Shown: positions 1,025 through 51,635 of the stretch, one piece after another
Layout: each line of letters begins with the position of its first letter
How positions within the stretch are numbered: the first letter of the stretch is position 1
Assembly: GCF_003590875.1 (NCBI RefSeq)
Contig: NZ_QYUN01000002.1
Coordinates: 62,001 to 126,000 of the forward strand
Direction: 5' to 3'
Length of the DNA: 64,000 nucleotides
Origin: Noviherbaspirillum cavernae
GTDB lineage: Bacteria; Pseudomonadota; Gammaproteobacteria; Burkholderiales; Burkholderiaceae_D
Notes under the pieces: model-generated
Databases searched by the model: none
What the model was told of the DNA's origin: nothing
Seen by the model: the letters and a program-made list of their open reading frames with translations, nothing else
Position numbers and translations under genes: made by a program

Positions 1025-3618
1025 TTATTGAGTCAGTAGCGCCGTTACTTCAATTTATTGCATTTGTACTTGCATCAACATTTACTGGAGCAGTCCTATC
1101 CCGTTGCATTCCTTGGTCAAATTCCTCCCTAAACGCAGGTGTTCATCGTGCAGTCGGATTCGCGCTTGGGCCATTTGTACTGGGATTGGGAGCCGTCGCT
1201 GTCCTTCAATTTCTTCCCGGTTTTTCCCATGCCTTTCATCTTTGCGCCTTGGTCGTTTGGACGCTTGGAATTGGCGTATTCGCATATTTTTTTCGTCTTC
1301 CCGCGGACCACTCAGCTGCAACGCGAGCCCCGATAACTTTCGGGGAAAGAATCCTAGGCACTTTACTGGCATGTTGGGTCTTGGCATTGTTGGTGAACAC
1401 TCTATTTTTGCCACTGAATCAGAACGATGCTTTGGAGTACGCGACCGTTGGTCGGTTGCTATTTGAAACGAAAAGTCTTGCCAGTTATCCGGCGATCCAT
1501 CCAGAGCAAATAGCATCTGGTTTCTATGCCCCTTGGACACATCCACCACTCTACGTGGCGTTGATCTATGTTGCTGAAGCTATCCAAGGGCATGCGAACG
1601 AGCCAGGCTTGATGCGCCTTATTGCACCATGGTTCGCGATAGCCTCTACATGGCTTATTTTCGCGTCAGGGAACGTCATTAATCGATTGTGCGGATTTTT
1701 GGCGGCATTGATTTTTATTTCTACCCCGCTATTTTTTTTAGGCGCTGACTCTGCTGCAATTGATGCTTTGCCCGTGCTCGGCTTTGCATTGTTGATGGTA
1801 GTTATTGTGGGCGTTGATGCCCCGCCGCGAATCAGTGGCGCGATTGCCGGGTTGGCACTCGGCTTGGCTCTATGGACGCACGCACAGGCAGTATTGTTTG
1901 TTCCGCTTGGCGTCGCCGCGATTAGCCTTCGTTACGGGTATACAAATTTGCGCTCCATTCTCGTCGCGTCCACGACGATGTTAATTGTCGGATTGATGAT
2001 CGGCGGCGCACCATATATCCACAATTTCTTGTTGTTCGGCTCCCCTATTAGCGACAACCCGGCCGTTTTCACCATGCCAAAACTGGAGTGGACAGAGTAC
2101 TTTGCCTTTTCTCGCGGTCTGGACAACTGGATGGCCGTCATTCAATACGGCATTTTCAAGGGGTGGTTCGCGCTCGAAGCCTATGGTTGGTCATTTTGGC
2201 TCATGTCGCTTGGATTGATTGCAGTCGCTCGCTGTGTTGATATTCGCATGGTTCGTCAGGCCATCCAAGGAGGGACAGATGGTCTTGAGAAGCCGTTGGC
2301 CCAACTGTGCCTTTGTGCTGGCGTGGTTCTTGTTTATCTATTCGGGCTCGTCATTTCGGTCGCTCTTGGCGTGGATCTCATGATCAAGAACGAGCGTTAT
2401 ATGCTCGTCATCTTGCCGCTGGTATCGATCTTGGGTGGCTTTGGCTGCTACCGTTTATTTAGGAAAGCGGCTCTCATAATTGTCAACACCGAGCAGCTAG
2501 CTTGGAAACGGGATTTGTTATTTGTTGGGGCCATTCTCATTAGTTGGGCGTGTGTTCTCCAACTTGGCTTGCTGGGTTGGCATTATCGCTGGCGCTATAT
2601 TCCTGATTCAAATGAAATAGTTCAAACCGGCTCCGTCACCACGATGACGCATGATCGCGAGACCGGCTCGACGAGATTTCAGCAGATTCTTGATAGTTTC
2701 TTAAATATTCGCGTGATGCACTGGGTCGCGTTGGAAGTCCCCCGCGAGGCCGTGATCTTGTCCTTGCGGCCTGCCGATATGTATTACTCGCATCGCCGGA
2801 TGGTGAGCTATCTTGATCCGCGCATGCTTGCCGTTTATCGGGAAGATGATCCCGTCAAAGCTGCATCCCTGCTTCGAGGTTTGGGAATTCAATATATCCA
2901 CGTGCCAGATTATGGCCTTCCAGTCCTGTATAACACAGTGCTTGATCAAATTGTCGCCGATCCCAAGCTGACAAGACTTGCTTATTCTGCCGGTGGCACA
3001 CAGCTTTACAAGTTGGAGGACAGTGGGCAGCGCTTTGTGGAGCTGCGAAATTTCACAACAGATGAAAATGTTTGGACACAGTGGCCGCAAACTCAGTGGG
3101 GAGGCTACCGAGTGTTTGGCGCTATAGGGGTTGTGCCGGTGGAGGTCGCCAGCCACGAAGTGTCTGTTACGAACTGGCGTATTCCATTTTTTCATCGAGA
3201 CTTTTCGACCATGATGGCCACCGGGTTCGGAACCCCGTTCGCCCATGCGAAGAATGGCACGCTGCTTCCTGTTGTTGGGGGGGGGGAGTACAGGATTGGG
3301 CTTGATTTGCAGGGTAGGGGTTATATCCGAATATGGGTGGCTCAGTTTGGATCCAGAGGAAACCTGCTGCGGGACTTTGACCGGCAAAGCGCGGATAGAT
3401 TAGGCGAAGTCGTGTTGGGGGCTGATAACCAGCTAAAGAAATTTCGTCGTCGACTGTTGGTGCTGCCGGAAGCCAAATATATAAGGATTGGGGTTGAGCG
3501 TCTTGGTCATTCAGAGCTAACGATCAAGAATTCAGAACTAAGCATACTCAAGCCTGCCGGGGCCGATCACTCGAATTACTCGTTATTTGAGAGAGGCGTG
3601 TCCGCCAGTGACCGCTAG
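1021..3618 (+). CDS. GT-C type membrane glycosyltransferase (ArnT/PMT-like) with C-terminal soluble domain
   Basis: An 865-residue protein. Roughly residues 1-520 are a series of about 12 hydrophobic segments typical of GT-C enzymes that use polyprenyl-phosphate sugars, with an acidic-residue loop after the first segments (LPLNQNDALEYATVGRLL) and a later extracytoplasmic loop (SDNPAVFTMPKLEWTEYF). The last ~330 residues are soluble and probably periplasmic. Likely role: transfer of a sugar from a lipid carrier to the surface glycan. The start overlaps the acetyltransferase stop by 4 bp. A run of ten G (3277-3286) lies in frame at about residues 753-756. Loss or gain of one G would truncate the C-terminal ~110 residues. 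Family assignment is by topology, not by a strict signature. Confidence 0.7.
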   Translation: MIIESVAPLLQFIAFVLASTFTGAVLSRCIPWSNSSLNAGVHRAVGFALGPFVLGLGAVAVLQFLPGFSHAFHLCALVVWTLGIGVFAYFFRLPADHSAATRAPITFGERILGTLLACWVLALLVNTLFLPLNQNDALEYATVGRLLFETKSLASYPAIHPEQIASGFYAPWTHPPLYVALIYVAEAIQGHANEPGLMRLIAPWFAIASTWLIFASGNVINRLCGFLAALIFISTPLFFLGADSAAIDALPVLGFALLMVVIVGVDAPPRISGAIAGLALGLALWTHAQAVLFVPLGVAAISLRYGYTNLRSILVASTTMLIVGLMIGGAPYIHNFLLFGSPISDNPAVFTMPKLEWTEYFAFSRGLDNWMAVIQYGIFKGWFALEAYGWSFWLMSLGLIAVARCVDIRMVRQAIQGGTDGLEKPLAQLCLCAGVVLVYLFGLVISVALGVDLMIKNERYMLVILPLVSILGGFGCYRLFRKAALIIVNTEQLAWKRDLLFVGAILISWACVLQLGLLGWHYRWRYIPDSNEIVQTGSVTTMTHDRETGSTRFQQILDSFLNIRVMHWVALEVPREAVILSLRPADMYYSHRRMVSYLDPRMLAVYREDDPVKAASLLRGLGIQYIHVPDYGLPVLYNTVLDQIVADPKLTRLAYSAGGTQLYKLEDSGQRFVELRNFTTDENVWTQWPQTQWGGYRVFGAIGVVPVEVASHEVSVTNWRIPFFHRDFSTMMATGFGTPFAHAKNGTLLPVVGGGEYRIGLDLQGRGYIRIWVAQFGSRGNLLRDFDRQSADRLGEVVLGADNQLKKFRRRLLVLPEAKYIRIGVERLGHSELTIKNSELSILKPAGADHSNYSLFERGVSASDR
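3277..3286 (+). repeat. Homopolymeric G10 tract inside the GT-C gene
   Basis: Ten consecutive G on the coding strand, after GTTGTT and before AGTACAGG. The tract encodes part of a VVGGGEYRIG segment, so ten is the in-frame number. Long poly-G runs inside surface-glycan genes are classic slipped-strand contingency tracts in host-associated bacteria. A sequencing length error at this site is also possible. Confidence 0.85.
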
Positions 3619-44798: not shown

Positions 44799-45821
44799 TC
44801 ATCGCTTTGCCATGACGCAAGTGCTGATGCCCCCGTTCTCACCGAAGCTCACGGATACCGGCAGGAAGTATTCGATCACTTGCGCATTCGTCTTTGCATG
44901 CATCGAGATGCGCGCGGTCGTGAAACACCCGCCGCCCGCCAGCGCCATCGGCAGCATGAGCTGATCCGCAAGATATTCGCCGACGGCCGCATGCGAGGCG
45001 ATGTAGTGCCGTGCCTGCTGCAGCGCATGGCGCGCGACCGCTTCCGCGCGCACCGACTTTTCGCCGAATCCGCTGAACACCTCGATCACATGCTCGTAGT
45101 CGAGCGTGATCAGCAAGGCATTGCCCGGCCCCTGCTCTCCAGGAAGCGTGCGTACCAGCAACTGCGACGCATCCCAGCCCATGCCGGTGCCGACGCATTC
45201 GAGTTCGCGCCTGGCGACGCCGGGCGGCACGCCGGCGATGAAGCACTCGGCATATGCCGCCTTGCGCTCGCCGCGCGACATCAGTTCGAGCGGACGCAAT
45301 TGCGCGCATGGCTGCACGTGCGCCACGACCTCGCCGCCGCCGGCCGGATAGAAGCCGAAGCGCTCCAGCCGGATGTCGAGCGTCGCGCCCATCTTCGTCA
45401 GTGCGCGGCAATAGGCGCGTTGCAGAAACTGGGCGGGCGGGGCCAGCGGATTGTGCGTGCCGCCGCTGACATGCACCGTCGCCGGCGTATCCGCGAACAG
45501 CAGGGCCGGCAACAGCGTTTGCAGCACCAGCGTGCAGCTCCCCGCGGTGCCGATCGCGAATCGGTACGCGCCGCCCCTGATGGCCTTCGGCGCGAAGCTC
45601 AATGCCCGCGAGCCGACCGCTGCACCGGCAACTTCGGCATCGCAGACCTGCGCCGCAGCCTGCACGGCAACCAGATGCTGCCGCATCAAGCCGGGTTTGG
45701 CGCGGTTGGCGCGAATGTTGCGGATGCAAAACGGCTGGCCGGTGATCATCGACAGCGTCAAGGCCGTGCGCAGGATCTGGCCGCCGCCTTCTCCCATCGA
45801 TCCATCCAGTTCAATCATCAT
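44799..45821 (-). CDS. rtcA: RNA 3'-terminal phosphate cyclase
   Basis: About 340 residues from ATG 45821 (AGGAAAG 12 nt upstream); the frame opens with a TTG at 45851. It starts MMIELDGSMGEGGGQILRTA, the family N-terminus with the ELDG..GEGGGQ nucleotide-site loop. Further features are HVSGGTHNPLAPPAQFLQRA and the C-terminal LPMALAGGGCFTTARISMHA, followed by TNAQVIEYFLP. RtcA turns 3'-phosphate or 2'-phosphate RNA ends into 2',3'-cyclic phosphates through an adenylylated His, making substrates for RtcB. It is last in the ro60 - Y RNA - rtcB - rtcA operon. Confidence 0.95.
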   Translation of the reverse strand: MMIELDGSMGEGGGQILRTALTLSMITGQPFCIRNIRANRAKPGLMRQHLVAVQAAAQVCDAEVAGAAVGSRALSFAPKAIRGGAYRFAIGTAGSCTLVLQTLLPALLFADTPATVHVSGGTHNPLAPPAQFLQRAYCRALTKMGATLDIRLERFGFYPAGGGEVVAHVQPCAQLRPLELMSRGERKAAYAECFIAGVPPGVARRELECVGTGMGWDASQLLVRTLPGEQGPGNALLITLDYEHVIEVFSGFGEKSVRAEAVARHALQQARHYIASHAAVGEYLADQLMLPMALAGGGCFTTARISMHAKTNAQVIEYFLPVSVSFGENGGISTCVMAKR

Positions 45822-45920
45822 CTTCTTCTTGTTCTTTCCTGTTGCAATCAAATCGCCGGCCGCGCATGGCAGGCTAGCCCATGCATGGCCGGTGGCAGGT
45901 ATTTCACGGGTGGCGGATGC

Positions 45921-45947
45921 GCAGCATCAGCCTCGCAGCATCAGCCT
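45921..45947. repeat. Tandem 14-bp duplication at the 3' end of rtcB
   Basis: GCAGCATCAGCCT occurs at 45921-45933 and again at 45935-45947, the second copy containing the rtcB stop. Probably a recent slippage event in the 119-bp rtcB-rtcA spacer. Confidence 0.8.
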
Positions 45948-47176
45948 TTCACGCACACCACCTGCTTCAGGGTATGCACGACTTCTACCAGATCGCGTTG
46001 CGCCTCCATCACTGCATCGATGTCCTTGTATGCCATCGGGATCTCGTCGATCACATCGGCATCCTTGCGGCATTCCACGCCTGCGGTCGCCCTGACCTGG
46101 TCATCGACCGTGAAGCGGCGTTTCGCCTCGGTGCGGCTCATCGCGCGCCCGGCGCCGTGGCTGCAGCTGTGGAAGCTTTCCGGGTTGCCCTTGCCGCGCA
46201 CGATGTAGCTGCTGGTCCCCATCGAACCCGGAATGATGCCGAGCTCGCCGGCGCGCGCCGACACCGCGCCCTTGCGCGTCACCAGCACATCCTTGCCGAA
46301 GTGGCGTTCCTTCTGCACGTAGTTGTGATGGCAATTCACCGCTTCCACATGCGTCTCGAACGGTTTCGTGATCACCGTGCGCACCGAGGCGATCAGGTTC
46401 TGCATCATCACTTCACGGTTCATGCGCGCAAACCTTTGCGCCCAGCCCACCGCCTCGACGTAGTCGTCGTAATGCCTTGTGCCTTCCGGCAGGTAGGCGA
46501 GGTCCTGGTCCGGCAGGTTGATGAAGTGCGTGCGCATGTCCTGCTTCGCCAGCTCGATGAAATGCGTGCCGATCGCATTGCCGACGCCGCGCGAACCCGA
46601 GTGCAGCATGAACCACACGAAGCCCTGTTCATCCAGGCAGATTTCGATGAAGTGGTTGCCGGACCCGAGCGTTCCCAGATGCTTGTAGTTGTTGGTGTTC
46701 CTCAGCTTCGGCGTCTTGTTGCAAATGGCATCGAATTCATCCTTCAATTGCGTCCAGGCAGCATTGACCGGCTGCGGCGGCCTATCCCAGGAACCCTTGT
46801 CGCGCCCCTTGAAGCCGCGCGTCTTGGGCGACATGCCATGCGGCACCGCTTTTTCGATCGCGCTGCGCAGCGGTCCCAGGTTGTCCGGCAGGTCCTTGGC
46901 CGTCAAGGTGGTTTTCGCTGCCATCATGCCGCAACCGATGTCCACGCCGACCGCCGCCGGAATGATCGCGCCGAGCGTCGGGATCACGCTGCCAATCGTC
47001 GAACCCTTGCCCAGATGCACATCCGGCATGGCCGCAACATGCTTGTAGATGAACGGCATCCGCGCGATATTGGCCAGCTGGCGCTTCGCTTCCTCTTCCA
47101 CCGGCACACCCCTGGTCCACATCTTGACCGGACGGCCGCCTTCGATAGTCAGCACATCGTATGTTTCGTGTTTCAT
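45941..47176 (-). CDS. rtcB: RNA 3'-phosphate/2',3'-cyclic-phosphate to 5'-OH ligase
   Basis: A 411-residue protein from ATG 47176 (MKHETYDVL); the frame continues upstream into the Y RNA array but that is not protein. Motifs of RtcB: AAVGVDIGCGMMA with the Mn-binding Asp and Cys, GTLGSGNHFIEICLDEQGFV, HSGSRGVGN, HHNYVQKE, and FHSCSHGAGRAMSR with the guanylylated His. It joins broken RNA ends, notably tRNA halves, using GTP and Mn. It lies 28 bp after the last Y RNA unit and upstream of rtcA. Expression should need sigma-54 and RtcR. Confidence 0.96.
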   Translation of the reverse strand: MKHETYDVLTIEGGRPVKMWTRGVPVEEEAKRQLANIARMPFIYKHVAAMPDVHLGKGSTIGSVIPTLGAIIPAAVGVDIGCGMMAAKTTLTAKDLPDNLGPLRSAIEKAVPHGMSPKTRGFKGRDKGSWDRPPQPVNAAWTQLKDEFDAICNKTPKLRNTNNYKHLGTLGSGNHFIEICLDEQGFVWFMLHSGSRGVGNAIGTHFIELAKQDMRTHFINLPDQDLAYLPEGTRHYDDYVEAVGWAQRFARMNREVMMQNLIASVRTVITKPFETHVEAVNCHHNYVQKERHFGKDVLVTRKGAVSARAGELGIIPGSMGTSSYIVRGKGNPESFHSCSHGAGRAMSRTEAKRRFTVDDQVRATAGVECRKDADVIDEIPMAYKDIDAVMEAQRDLVEVVHTLKQVVCVKG

Positions 47177-47204
47177 GATCTTCTCTTCTTCAATGTACCG
47201 GGGC

Positions 47205-47322
47205 GATGACAAGTGGCGATGAAATCCTTGCTGAGCTATTGGCTTGCGCCAACCCGGATTCGAACCGGGGACGGCCGAAGCGGACTTCGGTGCTCTACCA
47301 TGTAATTCCATCTGCATTCATC
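47205..47322 (-). ncRNA. Y RNA-like unit 5: tRNA-like body permuted within the D-loop
   Basis: Read on the - strand. Ro60-type stem: GATG (5') pairs with CATC (3'); AATGC faces TTGT; a second helix GATGGAA pairs with TTTCATC; bulged TTA; CAT follows. The cargo starts with GGTAGAGC, the 3' half of a D-arm. Next come a 6-bp hairpin CCGAAG-TCCG-CTTCGG in the anticodon-arm position (UNCG-type loop), then the T-arm CCCGG-TTCGAAT-CCGGG, then a short acceptor stem TTGGC-GCAA-GCCAA closed by a GNRA loop. It ends with TAGCTCAGC, the 5' half of a D-arm. The RNA is therefore opened in the D-loop instead of the anticodon arm. It lies 28 bp upstream of rtcB. Confidence 0.8.
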
Positions 47323-47331
47323 AAAAAAATC

Positions 47332-47472
47332 GGCGACAAGAGTGGTGAAACGGTGTGCGGTTTCCCGCACGGCGCTCTTCCGCTTGAGCTACGGCGACGT
47401 TGATTTGCCACCGGCGGGATTCGAACCCGCAACCTCCTCATTACAAGTGATGTAGTTCCACCGGCATTCGCC
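47332..47472 (-). ncRNA. Y RNA-like unit 4: permuted tRNA-like body with a tRNA-Thr-like loop
   Basis: Outer stem GGCG/CGCC, AATGC facing TTGT, inner helix GGTGG/CCACT, bulged CTA. The cargo includes TCA-CTTGTAA-TGA, which reads like the anticodon arm of tRNA-Thr(UGU), then the T-arm GCGGG-TTCGAAT-CCCGC. A 7-bp acceptor stem CGGTGGC/GTCGCCG (two G-U pairs) follows, closed by AAATCAAC. After it come TA and a full D-arm GCTC-AAGCGGAA-GAGC. A 6-bp hairpin GTGCGG-GAAA-CCGCAC then follows before the 3' Ro-stem strand. It is circularly permuted relative to tRNA, opened between the D-arm and the anticodon arm. Confidence 0.82.
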
Positions 47473-47487
47473 AAAACTGTTCAAGCG

Positions 47488-47594
47488 GCGCGACAACATT
47501 GAAAGAAACACTGCTCTACCCGCTGAGCTACGGATGCCTTTGCACCCGCCCGGATTCGAACCGGGGACACATGTAGTTCTTTCCGCATTCGCGC
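47488..47594 (-). ncRNA. Y RNA-like unit 3: canonical permuted tRNA-like (YrlA-type)
   Basis: Outer stem GCGCG/CGCGC, AATGC facing TTGT, inner helix GAAAGAA/TTCTTTC, bulged CTA, then CAT/GTG. The cargo is the T-arm CCCGG-TTCGAAT-CCGGG, then a 7-bp acceptor stem CGGGTGC/GCATCCG closed by AAAG, then TA and the D-arm GCTC-AGCGGGTA-GAGC with a GG pair able to meet the T-loop. There is no anticodon arm; the Ro60 stem takes its place. This is the architecture described for enterobacterial YrlA RNAs. Confidence 0.88.
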
Positions 47595-47610
47595 GCACAA
47601 CTCAATCCAT

Positions 47611-47707
47611 CCCGACAAGGGTGGACAGGACATTCTGCCAGACCTGTTCGGCATGGCAGGCCGGCATCGAACCGGCTTTTTCCGATGTAGTCCTGCCCGC
47701 ATTCGGG
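47611..47707 (-). ncRNA. Y RNA-like unit 2: T-arm plus hairpin, D-arm lost
   Basis: The clearest Ro-stem of the set: CCCG/CGGG, AATGC facing TTGT, GGG/CCC, CAGGA/TCCTG, bulged CTA, CAT/ATG. The cargo is a T-arm GCCGG-TTCGATG-CCGGC and then one extended hairpin (CTGCCA/TGGCAG continuing into GCC/GGT) in place of the acceptor stem. No D-arm is visible. Confidence 0.82.
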
Positions 47708-47727
47708 GTAACCATTACTTGAGCGAC

Positions 47728-47790
47728 GGCGTGACAAGAACTTGATGTGACGAAACATTGGAAAGATGTAATCACACCAGCATTCGCACC
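47728..47790 (-). ncRNA. Y RNA-like unit 1: minimal Ro60-stem without tRNA-like body
   Basis: About 63 nt. Outer stem GGTG/CGCC, AATGC facing TTGT, inner helix TGTGA/TCACA, TTA bulge region, ACAT/ATGT, closed by a short loop (CTTTCCA). It has the binding module common to the other four units and nothing else. It lies about 50 nt after the ro60 stop. Confidence 0.72.
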
Positions 47791-47841
47791 GCGCTCAAAA
47801 CCTGTTCTTCCTATCCGGATCACCCAACCCATGACCTCCTC

Positions 47842-49395
47842 CTATATTCCAATCGCCCCGATCTCGCCGACCCAGTGTGCAGGGCTCAATTGCCCAGCCG
47901 CGAAGGCCGCAACGATGTTGAATACGTCGTCCGAGAAACCGCCGATGTTCAACACATCCATGCGTTCAGCCGCCTGCGTCGTTCCGTAAGGCGCGATGTC
48001 GATGCACACCAGCTTTGCATCGGGATTGCGCTGCTTGAACGTCTCCCATTCGCGCATCGTTGCCGTCGCGCCATGGCGGGTCGCGTCCACCCATGACGCG
48101 TTGTCGGAGACGAACACGATCAGGTCGGCTTGCACCTTGTTCTTGTTCAACAGTGCCAGCGGTGCGCTGCAATTCGTGCCTCCGCCGCCGATCGCCGCCA
48201 GCTTCTGCGCATTGGTCATCACCGTATCGCGCGGATTCAGGTCAATGTTCACCACATCGTTCTCGAACGGCAGAACCGAGGTTCCCGCGTTCTTGCGCAG
48301 CATGGCGGCGGCCACTAGTGCGGCGACATCGATGCAACGCACGGCCGTCGATGCCGAAGCGCGGTAGCCGGTCACCGGCGAACTCATCGATCCCGACACG
48401 TCCGGACACACGACGACCTTGCCCGCGATCTGCGGCACGTTGGCCAGCGCGATTTCCAGCGCATCCTGCAATGCCTCGCGAATCGCCGGAGGCACTTCCT
48501 GCGTCGCCGAGCAGTACGCCGCCATCAGCTGGTACGGGAATACCCTGGCCTTCGCGATCGCCTCGGCATCGCGCAGCTTTGCGGCAATCGCTTCGGTCAT
48601 GCCGGGCAGCTGGAATACGCCGCGCCGCGCAAACGTGTTCAGGTTCATGCGCACCATCTGCCATCCGCCTTGCAAGGCGATCTGCGCCCATGCGGCGTCG
48701 GACAATTCCAGTGCGGTCAGCATCTGGAACGGCACGTCCGGCAGCGGCTGCGCGCGATCCCGCTTGTACGCTTCAAACGCTTTCACATTCGGCGGCAGGG
48801 CATCGGCGTTGTGCGGCTTGCCGATCAGCCAGGCGAAGAAGGCTTCACGCCAGGCCTCGGTCGGCTTGGGGTGCACCATCTTCACGACATCCGCCAGCGA
48901 TGGCGTGTTACCGACCGCGGCCGACAGCAATGCCTTTTCCGAGGCAGTGTTCAGCCATGCCTGCACCAGTTTCTTCGGACGCGTGCCGAGTGATTTGCGA
49001 CCGACCGCGCCGGAGCGGATGATCTGCACGAAGTTGCGCAGCATCTTGCCGTTGTCGATCACGCGATCGAACACGGGCGTCAATTCGGCGGCACCTTTTG
49101 CGGCCAGCACGGCAGTCAGCAGCGCCGGCATGTCCTTCATGTAGCCGCGTTCGCGGCAGTAGATCGCGGTCTGCGCGATGAAGCGCGTATCGACCTCCTT
49201 GCTCAATTCCAGCACGGTGTCCAGTTGCGCTTCGGCGCTCGCGTAGAAGGTCGCGTTCAGGCAGCCGGTCGCTGCGTATTGCGCCAGCAGCTGTTGCGGC
49301 GGCAGTCGGTATGCCGGCGCCTGCTCGAAGTTGATCGCGTTCGCGTTCGGCAACAGTTTGCCCTTCTGGCTCCGGAACAAGTTGGCGTTTGCCAT
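47842..49395 (-). CDS. rsr: Ro60 orthologue (Rsr), TROVE plus von Willebrand A domains
   Basis: About 517 residues from the second ATG (49395, MANANLF), which stands 8 nt after AGAGGG; the ATG at 49401 is only 2 nt from it. The N-terminal TROVE HEAT-repeat ring includes YRLPPQQLLAQYAATGCLNA, TAIYCRERGYMKDMPALLTA, and LRNFVQIIRSGAVGRKSLG followed by TRPKK. The C-terminal vWA domain has the MIDAS motif VCPDVSGSMSSP and IVFVSDNASWVD. Ro60 binds Y RNAs on its outer surface and damaged or misfolded RNA ends in its ring, and guides nucleases or repair. It is first in the operon under a sigma-54 promoter. Confidence 0.95.
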   Translation of the reverse strand: MANANLFRSQKGKLLPNANAINFEQAPAYRLPPQQLLAQYAATGCLNATFYASAEAQLDTVLELSKEVDTRFIAQTAIYCRERGYMKDMPALLTAVLAAKGAAELTPVFDRVIDNGKMLRNFVQIIRSGAVGRKSLGTRPKKLVQAWLNTASEKALLSAAVGNTPSLADVVKMVHPKPTEAWREAFFAWLIGKPHNADALPPNVKAFEAYKRDRAQPLPDVPFQMLTALELSDAAWAQIALQGGWQMVRMNLNTFARRGVFQLPGMTEAIAAKLRDAEAIAKARVFPYQLMAAYCSATQEVPPAIREALQDALEIALANVPQIAGKVVVCPDVSGSMSSPVTGYRASASTAVRCIDVAALVAAAMLRKNAGTSVLPFENDVVNIDLNPRDTVMTNAQKLAAIGGGGTNCSAPLALLNKNKVQADLIVFVSDNASWVDATRHGATATMREWETFKQRNPDAKLVCIDIAPYGTTQAAERMDVLNIGGFSDDVFNIVAAFAAGQLSPAHWVGEIGAIGI

Positions 49396-49433
49396 TTTCA
49401 TTTCCCTCTTCTCGTTGGTTGTACCCTTCCTAT

Positions 49434-49449
49434 TGCAACGGGTGTGCCA
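49434..49449 (-). promoter_or_regulatory. Consensus sigma-54 promoter for the ro60-rtcBA operon
   Basis: Reading the - strand: TGGCACACCCGTTGCA, with GG and GC separated by ten bases as in the -24/-12 consensus (TGGCAC-N5-TTGCA). It lies 38 bp upstream of the ro60 ATG. RtcR, encoded divergently, is the matching sigma-54 activator. Confidence 0.92.
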
Positions 49450-49470
49450 GATGATGTACAGAGGCGAAAA

Positions 49471-49515
49471 TTGAATGACAAGTATTTGATTTACAAGGGA
49501 ATATTTTTCATTCGA
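49471..49515. promoter_or_regulatory. Candidate RtcR upstream activating site
   Basis: Near-perfect inverted repeat TTGAATGA (49471-49478) and TCATTCGA (49508-49515), 22-66 bp upstream of the -24 element. The distance and symmetry fit an enhancer for a sigma-54 activator. Assignment to RtcR is inferred from position. Confidence 0.45.
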
Positions 49516-49560
49516 GATGTGAGGCGCGAAAAGACGAGCGTCCCCTGATTTCGTGATAAA

Positions 49561-49576
49561 TTATCTAAAAAGATAA
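49561..49576. promoter_or_regulatory. AT-rich palindrome before rtcR
   Basis: TTATCT-AAAA-AGATAA, a perfect 6-bp inverted repeat 13 bp before the rtcR ATG. It could be an operator of rtcR or part of its leader. No other motif assigns it. Confidence 0.4.
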
Positions 49577-49589
49577 ATATTTATACGAA

Positions 49590-51203
49590 ATGAAAAGCAA
49601 ACGCATCGTGGTCATCGGTTTCGTCGGCACGCAACTCGACGGCGGCAAGGGCGGCGGGCGCTGGGAGAAGTGGCGGCCGACGGTCGCGCTGACCCAGCAT
49701 GAAGACCTCGTGATCGACCGTCTCGAGCTGCTCTACAGCGGCCGTCACGGCGATTTGGCGGAACTCGTCGGACGCGATATCGCCTCGGTGTCGCCGGAAA
49801 CGCAGGTCACGCCGCATCAATTGCAGATTGCCGATCCGTGGGATTTCGAGGACGTGTACGGCAACCTGTTCGACTTCGCCAGGCACTATCCCTTCGATCC
49901 GGATAACGAGGAATACTGGATCCACATCACGACCGGAACGCACGTGGTCCAGATCTGCATGTTCCTGATGACGGAGGCGCGCTACTTTCCCGGCCGCCTG
50001 CTGCAAACCTCGCCGCCGCGCCGGCAGACGATCGGCGATGCCGGCAGCTACGCGCTGATCGATCTCGACCTGTCGAAGTACGACCAGATCGCGCAGCGCT
50101 TTTCGCGCGAGCAGCAGGAAGGCGTCGCCTTTCTCAAGTCGGGCATCGCGACACGCAATGCGCGCTTCAACGAGATGATCGACGAGATCGAGCGCGTGGC
50201 GATCAAGTCGAAGGCGCCGATGCTGTTGATGGGGCCGACCGGCGCGGGCAAGTCCTTCCTTGCCCGCCGGACATACGAGCTCAAGAAGGCGCGGCATCAG
50301 CTCGACGGCAGATTCGTGGAAATCAATTGCGCCACCCTGCATGGCGACGGTGCCGCCTCGACCTTGTTCGGCCATATCAAGGGTGCATTCACCGGCGCGG
50401 CATCCGACCGTCCCGGCCTGCTGCGTACCGCGCACAAGGGCGTGCTGTTCCTGGATGAGATCGGCGAACTCGGCCTCGACGAACAGGCAATGCTGCTCAA
50501 AGCCATCGAGGAAAAGCGCTTCCTGCCGGTCGGCGGCGACCATGAAGTACAGAGCGACTTCCAGCTCATTGCTGGCACCAACCGCGACCTGTCGCGGGAA
50601 GTCGTGGCGGGCCGCTTCCGCGAAGACCTGTACGCGCGGATCAACCTGTGGACCTACGAACTGCCCGGCCTGATCGACCGCCCCGAGGACATCGAGCCGA
50701 ACATCGATTATCTGCTTGCGCAGTTCGGAGCCGAGCATGGCCAGATGGTGCGCTTCAACAAGGAAGCCCGCGCGCGCTACATGCAATTCGCCATGTCGCC
50801 GGCGGCGCGCTGGGTCGGCAACTTCCGTGATCTGTCCGCCTCGATGCTGAGGATGGCAACGCTGGCAGAAGCGGGCCGGATTACCGACGCGATCGTGCAG
50901 GATGAAACGACGCGCCTGCAGCGGCTGTGGCGGCCCTACGCGGGCGGAAACATCGACCAGGGCGATGTGGATCTGGATGCCGTGCTGGGGCGGGAACGGG
51001 TGGCGCAGCTCGACCTGTTCGATGCCATGCAATTGAAGGCGGTGATCGGCGTGTGCCGCCAATCGAAGTCGCTGTCGGACGCCGGCCGCAAGCTGTTTTC
51101 CGTATCGCGCAGCGTCAAGGAAAAGCCGAACGATGCGGACCGCCTCAAGAAGTTTCTGGCGCGCTTCGAACTGACATGGGATGGCTTGCAGCAAACCGGC
51201 TGA
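49590..51203 (+). CDS. rtcR: Sigma-54-dependent activator of RNA repair genes
   Basis: A 537-residue protein divergent from ro60. The N-terminal ~180 residues are the RtcR sensor, a CARF-type Rossmann domain (KRIVVIGFVGTQLDGGKGGG, with WIHITTGTHVVQICMFLMTE). The AAA+ domain has Walker A MGPTGAGKS, the sigma-54 contact loop GAFTGA, Walker B VLFLDEIGEL, and an R-finger region (GRFREDLYARINLWTYELPG). The C-terminal part is a helical DNA-binding region. In Salmonella, RtcR responds to broken tRNA fragments carrying cyclic phosphate ends. It should open the sigma-54 promoter at 49434-49449. Confidence 0.95.
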   Translation: MKSKRIVVIGFVGTQLDGGKGGGRWEKWRPTVALTQHEDLVIDRLELLYSGRHGDLAELVGRDIASVSPETQVTPHQLQIADPWDFEDVYGNLFDFARHYPFDPDNEEYWIHITTGTHVVQICMFLMTEARYFPGRLLQTSPPRRQTIGDAGSYALIDLDLSKYDQIAQRFSREQQEGVAFLKSGIATRNARFNEMIDEIERVAIKSKAPMLLMGPTGAGKSFLARRTYELKKARHQLDGRFVEINCATLHGDGAASTLFGHIKGAFTGAASDRPGLLRTAHKGVLFLDEIGELGLDEQAMLLKAIEEKRFLPVGGDHEVQSDFQLIAGTNRDLSREVVAGRFREDLYARINLWTYELPGLIDRPEDIEPNIDYLLAQFGAEHGQMVRFNKEARARYMQFAMSPAARWVGNFRDLSASMLRMATLAEAGRITDAIVQDETTRLQRLWRPYAGGNIDQGDVDLDAVLGRERVAQLDLFDAMQLKAVIGVCRQSKSLSDAGRKLFSVSRSVKEKPNDADRLKKFLARFELTWDGLQQTG

Positions 51204-51311: not shown

Positions 51312-51635
51312 ATGAAGCGCGCATTGTTTCTTTGTACGCATAACCGGCTGCGGAGTCCGACCGCCGAACACGTTTTCGCAACGTGGCCTGAGGTCGAAAC
51401 CGATTCGGCGGGATTGGGCGCGGACGCAGCGGTTCCGCTGTCGCCGGAACAGATTGCATGGGCCAACATCATTTTCGTCATGGAAAAGACGCATCGGACA
51501 AGACTGTCGACGAAGTTCAGGCGCTACCTGAATGGGAAGCGCGTAATCTGTCTCGATATCCCGGATGAGTATGACTACATGCAGCTAGATCTCATGGCGC
51601 TGCTGGAGTCCAGGGCCGGCCGCTTCCTGAAATGA
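51312..51635 (+). CDS. Low-molecular-weight protein tyrosine phosphatase-like protein
   Basis: A 107-residue single domain. The N-terminal loop LFLCTHNRLRSPTAEHVF contains the C-x5-R-S/T catalytic motif (Cys in CTHNRLRSP). ANIIFVMEKTHRTRLSTKF is the second conserved segment, and DIPDEYDYM carries a D-x-Y pair like the general acid region. Length is shorter than the usual ~150 residues; small versions like this occur next to unrelated genes. The substrate is unknown. The gene follows rtcR by 108 bp, but no functional link is evident. Confidence 0.8.
   Translation: MKRALFLCTHNRLRSPTAEHVFATWPEVETDSAGLGADAAVPLSPEQIAWANIIFVMEKTHRTRLSTKFRRYLNGKRVICLDIPDEYDYMQLDLMALLESRAGRFLK

Follow-up and report, generated by a model that had tools for sequence, protein, structure and literature searches.

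Between ro60 and rtcB, the minus strand of the window (the whole stretch of DNA that was analyzed, 64,000 nucleotides from Noviherbaspirillum cavernae) carries five units that are very probably Ro60 Y RNAs. They share a common stem, and the distal module on it would be absent in the first unit, a minihelix in the second, a three-arm domain in the third, and a whole tRNA in each of the last two. Judged from the sequence, what looks new is that units 3, 4, and 5 differ in the point at which the tRNA ring is opened. Whole cloverleaves opened at two new points, alongside the opening found in YrlA, would make up a natural series of permuted tRNAs.

The array lies in an RtcR-type RNA repair operon, as the sequence-only reading that preceded this analysis had proposed. 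Pfam models found RtcR with its sigma-54 activator domain, the Ro60 vWA domain, RtcB, and RTC, and thereby assigned ro60, rtcB, rtcA, and a divergent rtcR:

44799..45851, minus strand: rtcA, RNA 3′-phosphate cyclase (Pfam RTC, 270 bits)
45941..47176, minus strand: rtcB, RNA ligase (Pfam RtcB, 453 bits)
47842..49401, minus strand: ro60/rsr, Y RNA binding protein (Pfam vWA_Ro60, 70 bits)
49434..49449, minus strand: sigma-54 −24/−12 type site TGGCACACCCGTTGCA, 5′ of ro60 (pattern match)
49590..51203, plus strand: rtcR, divergent sigma-54-dependent activator (Pfam RtcR, 287 bits; Sigma54_activat, 167 bits)

The TROVE match in Ro60 reaches 20.9 bits, slightly below the Pfam cut-off of 23. The longest rtcB frame begins at 47317, within Y RNA unit 5, and the likely start is 47176, with 47177-47317 lying between the two. 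A small frame adjoining rtcR (51312-51635) matches a low-molecular-weight phosphatase at 22.4 bits, under the cut-off of 23.2.

The −24/−12 pattern has a single perfect match in the window, upstream of ro60. This pattern was composed after the site had been noticed, and with one mismatch permitted it has two matches in the window, compared with 2.9 expected; the weight of the site is its location ahead of ro60 and adjoining rtcR. Neither a terminator-like nor a sigma-70-like site was found in 47100-49620, which says little because shuffled sequences average just 2.7 and 1.0 such sites, respectively. The five Y RNAs, ro60, rtcB, and rtcA apparently form one transcription unit and would be co-transcribed.

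All five units lie on the minus strand at the places given by the sequence-only reading, and each contains GAATGC, then [CT]TACAT, and then TTGTC. The outer arms pair in every unit, as had been claimed, at 5, 5, 6, 6, and 6 of 6 positions, with one mismatch each in units 1 and 2. From stem to stem, the units measure 61, 99, 107, 143, and 120 nt. A covariance-model search, which the same reading had proposed as a check, returned Rfam matches at each of the five places and bears out their identity as Y RNAs with a common Ro60 stem. Unit 1 matches positions 1-78 of YrlB (RF02565) at 41.6 bits (E 4e-7), below the cut-off of 97, and units 2-5 match YrlA (RF02553) at 32.8, 77.9, 43.9, and 32.5 bits. 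Unit 3 alone exceeds the gathering cut-off of 69 bits; units 2, 4, and 5 match model positions 1-114 with E-values of 2e-8 to 5e-5, all E-values referring to the search of an 801-base stretch. The present YrlA and YrlB models of Rfam leave four of the five units under their cut-offs. In the whole genome of the organism, YrlA gave four matches at E ≤0.001, all of them in this array, and none elsewhere.

The array also has other marks of bacterial Y RNAs. It adjoins the Ro60 gene, as ro60 ends at 47842 and the first unit begins at 47789, and the two-helix Ro60 stem with GAATGC and a TTG internal loop is present in five of five units. Bacterial Y RNAs reportedly include one or more members that carry a tRNA-like domain; by Rfam matches and predicted folds, units 3-5 have one. 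The units and their parts are the following:

47729..47789, minus strand: unit 1 (class C1), Ro60 stem and short hairpin, no tRNA module, YrlB-like (YrlB match at 47795-47722; fold)
47610..47708, minus strand: unit 2 (class C2), Ro60 stem with T arm (47676-47660) and acceptor-like hairpin (47659-47635) (YrlA, 32.8 bits)
47488..47594, minus strand: unit 3 (class C3), canonical YrlA with T arm (47565-47549), acceptor hairpin (47548-47531), and D arm (47528-47513) (Rfam; fold)
47331..47473, minus strand: unit 4 (class C4), predicted complete permuted cloverleaf with T arm (47430-47414), acceptor hairpin (47413-47392), and D arm (47389-47374) (YrlA, 43.9 bits; covariation)
47438..47450, minus strand: predicted anticodon hairpin of unit 4, tRNA positions 29-41, loop CTTGTAA (anticodon UGU) (class covariation)
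47371..47373, minus strand: nucleotides 26-28 of unit 4, after the D arm; 27-28 (CC) pair with 42-43 (GG, 47437-47436)
47355..47370, minus strand: extra hairpin of unit 4, GTGCGG-GAAA-CCGCAC, between position 28 and the Y stem (fold)
47204..47323, minus strand: unit 5 (class C5), predicted complete permuted cloverleaf opened in the D loop (YrlA, 32.5 bits; fold; 32 similar units)

The cargo had been described as graded from none to tRNA-like bodies in units 3-5. The gradation in completeness holds, and the T arm, the loop-closed acceptor, and the D arm of units 3-5 are present in the predicted folds. The three bodies of units 3-5 are unlike one another, because each opens the tRNA ring at another point. 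Unit 2, which lacks both the D arm and the anticodon arm, is a T-arm/acceptor minihelix, and in unit 3 the Y stem occupies the place of the anticodon arm. The ring of unit 4 is opened in the anticodon stem between tRNA positions 28 and 29, and the 7-nt anticodon loop is retained; its extra hairpin is found in just some relatives. In unit 5, the D stem consists of two distant strands, of which GGTAGAGC (47299-47292) pairs with GCTC (47236-47233). The anticodon-arm position of this unit (47290-47275) is capped by a tetraloop and is followed by the T arm (47269-47253) and the acceptor hairpin (47252-47239).

The Rfam tRNA model reaches 31.4 bits, above its cut-off, at 47406-47465 inside unit 4, and annotation may therefore show a false tRNA there.

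The anticodon arm predicted for unit 4 rests on comparison. Free-energy folding of the unit in the window does not yield this arm: the named structure has −53.5 kcal/mol compared with a minimum of −58.4 kcal/mol, and the pair probabilities of the anticodon arm are about 0.01. For the C4 class, we read the segment of 18-22 nt from the Y stem to the T arm as tRNA positions 29-48, and the bases past the D arm as positions 26-28. The right spacing was found in 49 units, of which 42 passed the parse score, giving 35 distinct arms; three misfits (L099, L109, and L111) were retained in the pair counts. Of the 35 distinct arms, 32, 34, 34, 35, and 34 retain pairs 27-43, 28-42, 29-41, 30-40, and 31-39, respectively. 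Positions 27-28 and 42-43 had no part in selecting or framing the units, and these split pairs are formed in 66 of 70 cases, compared with a permutation mean of 36.3; none of 10,000 permutations reaches 66. Pairs 29-31/39-41 are formed in 103 of 105 cases (54.5 when permuted), a count that is slightly flattered because these pairs decided between two frames. The loop has C or U at position 32 in 35/35 arms, U at position 33 in 32/35, and A or G at position 37 in 32/35.

An alignment of 30 of the 42 C4 units (A1), picked by eye, has 98.7% of its cells paired compared with 82.0% after shuffling, and its split helix is paired in 60 of 60 cells, using GC, CG, AU, and GU. Run unaided on the class, RNAalifold recovers pairs 30-40 and 31-39 and does not recover the two split pairs, which had been named from tRNA beforehand and were then tested. 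Of 17 further C4 arms, 15, 16, 13, 16, and 15 retain the five pairs, respectively, and 13 have U33; the split pairs are formed in 31 of 34 cases (18.9 when permuted). These arms are partly independent, since 10 of the 17 lie in loci found with a model built from A1, which contains the split pairs; in the seven arms found through Rfam YrlA or Ro60 alone, the split pairs are formed in 12 of 14 cases. At least one misfit among the further arms (L144 at 4412) is due to the fixed frame of the parser. On a Ro60 tree of 35 loci, from which the misread rows L099 and L111 were left out, the state of the split pairs changed at least five times (four if a one-sided variant is merged), and that of pairs 29-31/39-41 at least 11 times. 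The covariation of the split pairs is therefore not one inherited event.

The 32 units of class C5, unit 5 included, share a layout in which GG and a D-stem strand lie shortly past TAC and are followed by a helix at the place of the anticodon arm. This helix has 5-8 bp and is closed by 4 bases in 28 of the 32 units. Downstream follow the variable loop (AGGTC in 21/32), the T arm, the acceptor hairpin, and the second D-stem strand. Because the C5 parser accepts only units with helices for the D arm, the T arm, the acceptor, and the anticodon position, pairing in this class is partly by construction, and the test is covariation. An alignment of 21 C5 units and one other (L061), 22 chosen sequences in all, has 97.8% of its cells paired compared with 77.4% after shuffling, and 19 pairs with double changes compared with 13.0; further pair types are no more frequent in it than in shuffles (194/500). 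RNAalifold finds, unaided, the C5 D stem built of distant strands. For class C2, 12 units picked by eye have 97.9% of their cells paired compared with 90.6% after shuffling, and again further pair types are no higher than in shuffles (190/500).

Two variants were observed among the D-loop-opened units. A unit at L083:6072-6196 and its Mesorhizobium relatives are C5 units with the D-arm halves GGCGCAG/GGTAGCGC, which we take to look like those of tRNA-Pro. At L079, L083, L084, L086, L101, L103, and L106, the last unit found in each array is opened in the D loop and has a long variable arm, presumably resembling that of tRNA-Leu. When these seven units were re-ordered, four were called by ARAGORN, one of them as Leu(UAA).

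The comparison loci were the best 80 of 131 Ro60 loci from one scan. Our Y RNA scanner, which demands GAATGC, TAC, a TTGTC-type end, and both helices, found 254 units in these loci, none on the opposite strand, and one in one dinucleotide-shuffled copy; on the plus strand of the window, it gave one match. Unit counts per locus are lower bounds, because the scanner applies strict criteria and some of the loci lie close to a contig end. The sequence-only reading had regarded a five-unit array as the unusual feature and enterobacterial Y RNAs as single, and neither statement survives comparison. Among the best 80 of 131 loci, 43 hold at least three units (three to seven) and 19 at least five, and two others, L144 (4218-5763, reverse-strand coordinates) and L191, have 13 and 11 units adjoining the Ro60 gene. 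The Salmonella operon rsr-yrlBA-rtcBA has two Y RNAs, according to the accessible part of PMC7790460. We therefore rejected the five-unit array as a novelty, such arrays being common among Ro60 loci.

Including the five units of the window, 259 units were parsed, comprising 41 C4, 32 C5, and 28 C3 units, 65 with a T arm only or unparsed, 91 without a tRNA parse, and 2 others. C4 is present in 37, C5 in 24, and both in 12 of the best 80 of 131 loci. The window holds one unit of each class, and C3, C4, and C5 also occur together in L093, L100, and L103. Across genomes, C4 is rare: with the C4 model (R1), a score of 68 bits is reached in 11 of 300 genomes from the order and in 9 of 398 from the phylum, the organism's own genome being in both tallies. 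Genomes were counted solely if they had a row of at least 68 bits, and the plain tallies of this model (276/300 and 301/398 genomes) were set aside because many rows of ∼40-55 bits appear to be ordinary tRNA genes.

Y RNA units were also seen on contigs of a viral collection. L240 (2667-6883) has a Ro60 gene with eight Y RNA units amid 35 ARAGORN tRNA calls, one of which (3206-3274) falls within a Y unit; one of the units is a C4 unit with the loop CTTGTAA. On L243 (6723-6789), the sole cargo of a short Y unit is an anticodon-arm-like hairpin, ATCA-CTTGTAA-TGAT.

The members of such arrays might be redundant paralogues or a dosage series, in which copies diverge without separate roles. An array size that ranges from 1 to 13 among relatives would be in keeping with this, but different genera have the same classes with covarying stems, and C4 apparently occurs in several phyla, so that we regard redundancy as distinctly unlikely. 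The proposal that the set samples different partners appears to fit better than a dosage series, since each class is found again, distinct from the others, in other genera.

To compare conservation within C4, we counted for each position the smallest number of changes that the Ro60 tree requires. T stands at position 8 in 35/35 and G at position 46 in 31/31, both without change, and U33 changes twice. Positions 14, 54, 55, 56, and 58 likewise show no change and are not counted as evidence, because the parser demands or favors those bases. Anticodon positions 34, 35, and 36 change 12, 9, and 11 times, and the first four bases of the acceptor loop 13, 11, 10, and 13 times. The triplet thus changes like the linkers and U33 and G46 hardly at all, indicating that the frame of the anticodon arm is kept while the triplet drifts. 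With at least 21 changes of the anticodon on the tree of 35 loci, the class has no conserved usable anticodon. The rhizobial triplet is mostly GTT, and drift is therefore slow within rhizobia. Bacteria seldom use A as the first anticodon base, and 14 of the 35 C4 anticodons begin with A, 5 of these being ACG. Selection seems to act on tRNA shape and not on decoding; the anticodon triplet itself would not be read. Unit 4 was rejected as a recent copy of one of the organism's own tRNAs, its best identity (70%, to tRNA-Thr(UGU)) being at the background level of the own isotypes (46 own tRNA sequences; best identity to another isotype, mean 70%, range 59-80%).

An arm kept in this way might act as a decoy for anticodon nucleases. 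Unit 4 would then present an anticodon loop that can be cleaved, and unit 5 a tRNA that lacks such a loop, so that tRNA-cutting toxins would be occupied or inhibited; after a cut, the Y stem would keep unit 4 in one piece, and RtcB could reseal it. C4 does keep an anticodon arm with U33, the C5 helix at that place has a tetraloop in 28/32 units, and a C4 unit is present in two of six viral-collection Ro60 loci, one of them amid a run of tRNA genes. According to the accessible part of PMC7790460, broken tRNAs induce the Salmonella operon, and competitive inhibition of a nuclease by the tRNA-like domain of YrlA is suggested as a possibility; the same part states that fragments of Salmonella YrlA were not detected, although that YrlA has no anticodon arm. 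However, anticodon triplets and linkers evolve at similar rates, and therefore no sequence-specific nuclease is matched. An anticodon fitted to particular nucleases was thus discarded as unsupported, and we consider the decoy explanation for anticodon nucleases unlikely.

With the Y stem moved out in silico, ARAGORN calls a tRNA in 40 of 40 C4 and 18 of 32 C5 units, compared with 0/259 in the encoded order, 0/72 shuffles, and 156/300 mixtures of segments from different units. The calls are an illustration and not a proof, because more than half of the mixtures are also called, and we did not retain them as proof of tRNA nature. Unit 4 of the window becomes a 76-nt tRNA-Thr(UGU), of which 4 nt are ACCA added in silico, and unit 5 is called as a tRNA with an undefined anticodon. 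Re-ordering yields the complete cloverleaf by which a circularly permuted tRNA gene is recognized. In 17 of 80 well-parsed units (L064, L075, L078, and rhizobial L083-L113), the acceptor loop starts with NCCA right after the acceptor strand.

The units could accordingly be read as circularly permuted tRNA genes, from which the Y stem would be excised and whose ends RtcB would join to give working tRNAs. RtcB is encoded in the operon, every re-ordered C4 unit is called, and the NCCA in 17/80 units would suit this reading. Yet the acceptor loop of unit 4 in the window lacks CCA, 14/35 anticodons begin with A, the genome already has a tRNA-Thr(UGU), and ARAGORN also accepts the segment mixtures; moreover, the anticodon arm is absent from C3, and in most C5 units a tetraloop takes the place of the anticodon loop. 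Together, these points make working tRNAs a very unlikely product. A more elaborate version, in which the arrays store permuted whole tRNAs and, once tRNAs are damaged, RtcB joins position 28 to 29 after removal of the Ro60 stem, strikes us as extremely unlikely; if true, replacement or trap tRNAs would come from the very operon that senses and repairs tRNA damage.

In bacterial Y RNAs, the choice of what Ro60 is joined to is generally ascribed to the distal end. We favor an explanation in which the set provides tRNA-shaped adaptors or decoys on Ro60 during tRNA damage. RtcR would sense broken tRNAs, and sigma-54 transcription would yield Ro60 along with the Y RNA set. Ro60 would grip each RNA via the constant stem, and the distal module would offer a generic tRNA-shaped docking surface or decoy for shape-recognizing proteins, candidate partners being an exonuclease such as PNPase, tRNA-modifying enzymes, and tRNA-cutting nucleases. 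The predicted modules span none, acceptor/T, three arms, whole with loop, and whole without loop; as they show different tRNA parts, they would engage different proteins. This suggests that the cell may display tRNA look-alikes while its own tRNAs are broken. The functional steps, namely display on Ro60 and docking or decoy, are tentative and somewhat more apt to fail than to hold, and for the whole explanation, anatomy and role together, we judge the chances to be evenly divided. A module set that shows different tRNA parts leads to direct tests, namely which proteins bind which module and whether the anticodon arm of unit 4 is cut.

In the partly accessible literature that we searched, we found no account of Y RNAs that have an anticodon arm or are opened at other points, a statement about what was found and not about what has been published. 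The units resemble YrlA (RF02553; Salmonella structure, PDB code 6CU1) in the Ro60 stem with GAATGC and internal loop, the T arm, the loop-closed acceptor, and the D arm. As described in the accessible parts of the respective papers, the tRNA-like domain of YrlA resembles the D, T, and acceptor arms (PMC8394870), and bacterial Y RNA is circularly permuted relative to tRNA (PMC11472068), a likeness that extends to the present units. Whereas the Y stem replaces the anticodon arm in YrlA, units 4 and 5 appear to keep this arm and to open elsewhere, and unit 2 differs in having no D arm. Unit 1 is like YrlB (RF02565) in combining the Ro60 stem with no tRNA module, at the score of 41.6 bits against a cut-off of 97. 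The operon shares its gene set and RtcR-type regulator with Salmonella rsr-yrlBA-rtcBA, as far as the accessible part of PMC7790460 describes it, but holds five Y RNAs instead of two, and two of the five are predicted to be complete tRNA mimics. In algal and archaeal permuted tRNA genes, the 3′ part is likewise encoded ahead of the 5′ part, and one type is opened in the D loop at 20/21, according to the accessible part of PMC3978253. In contrast to those genes, the units described here have an anticodon that is not conserved and a Ro60-type stem that fills the opening.
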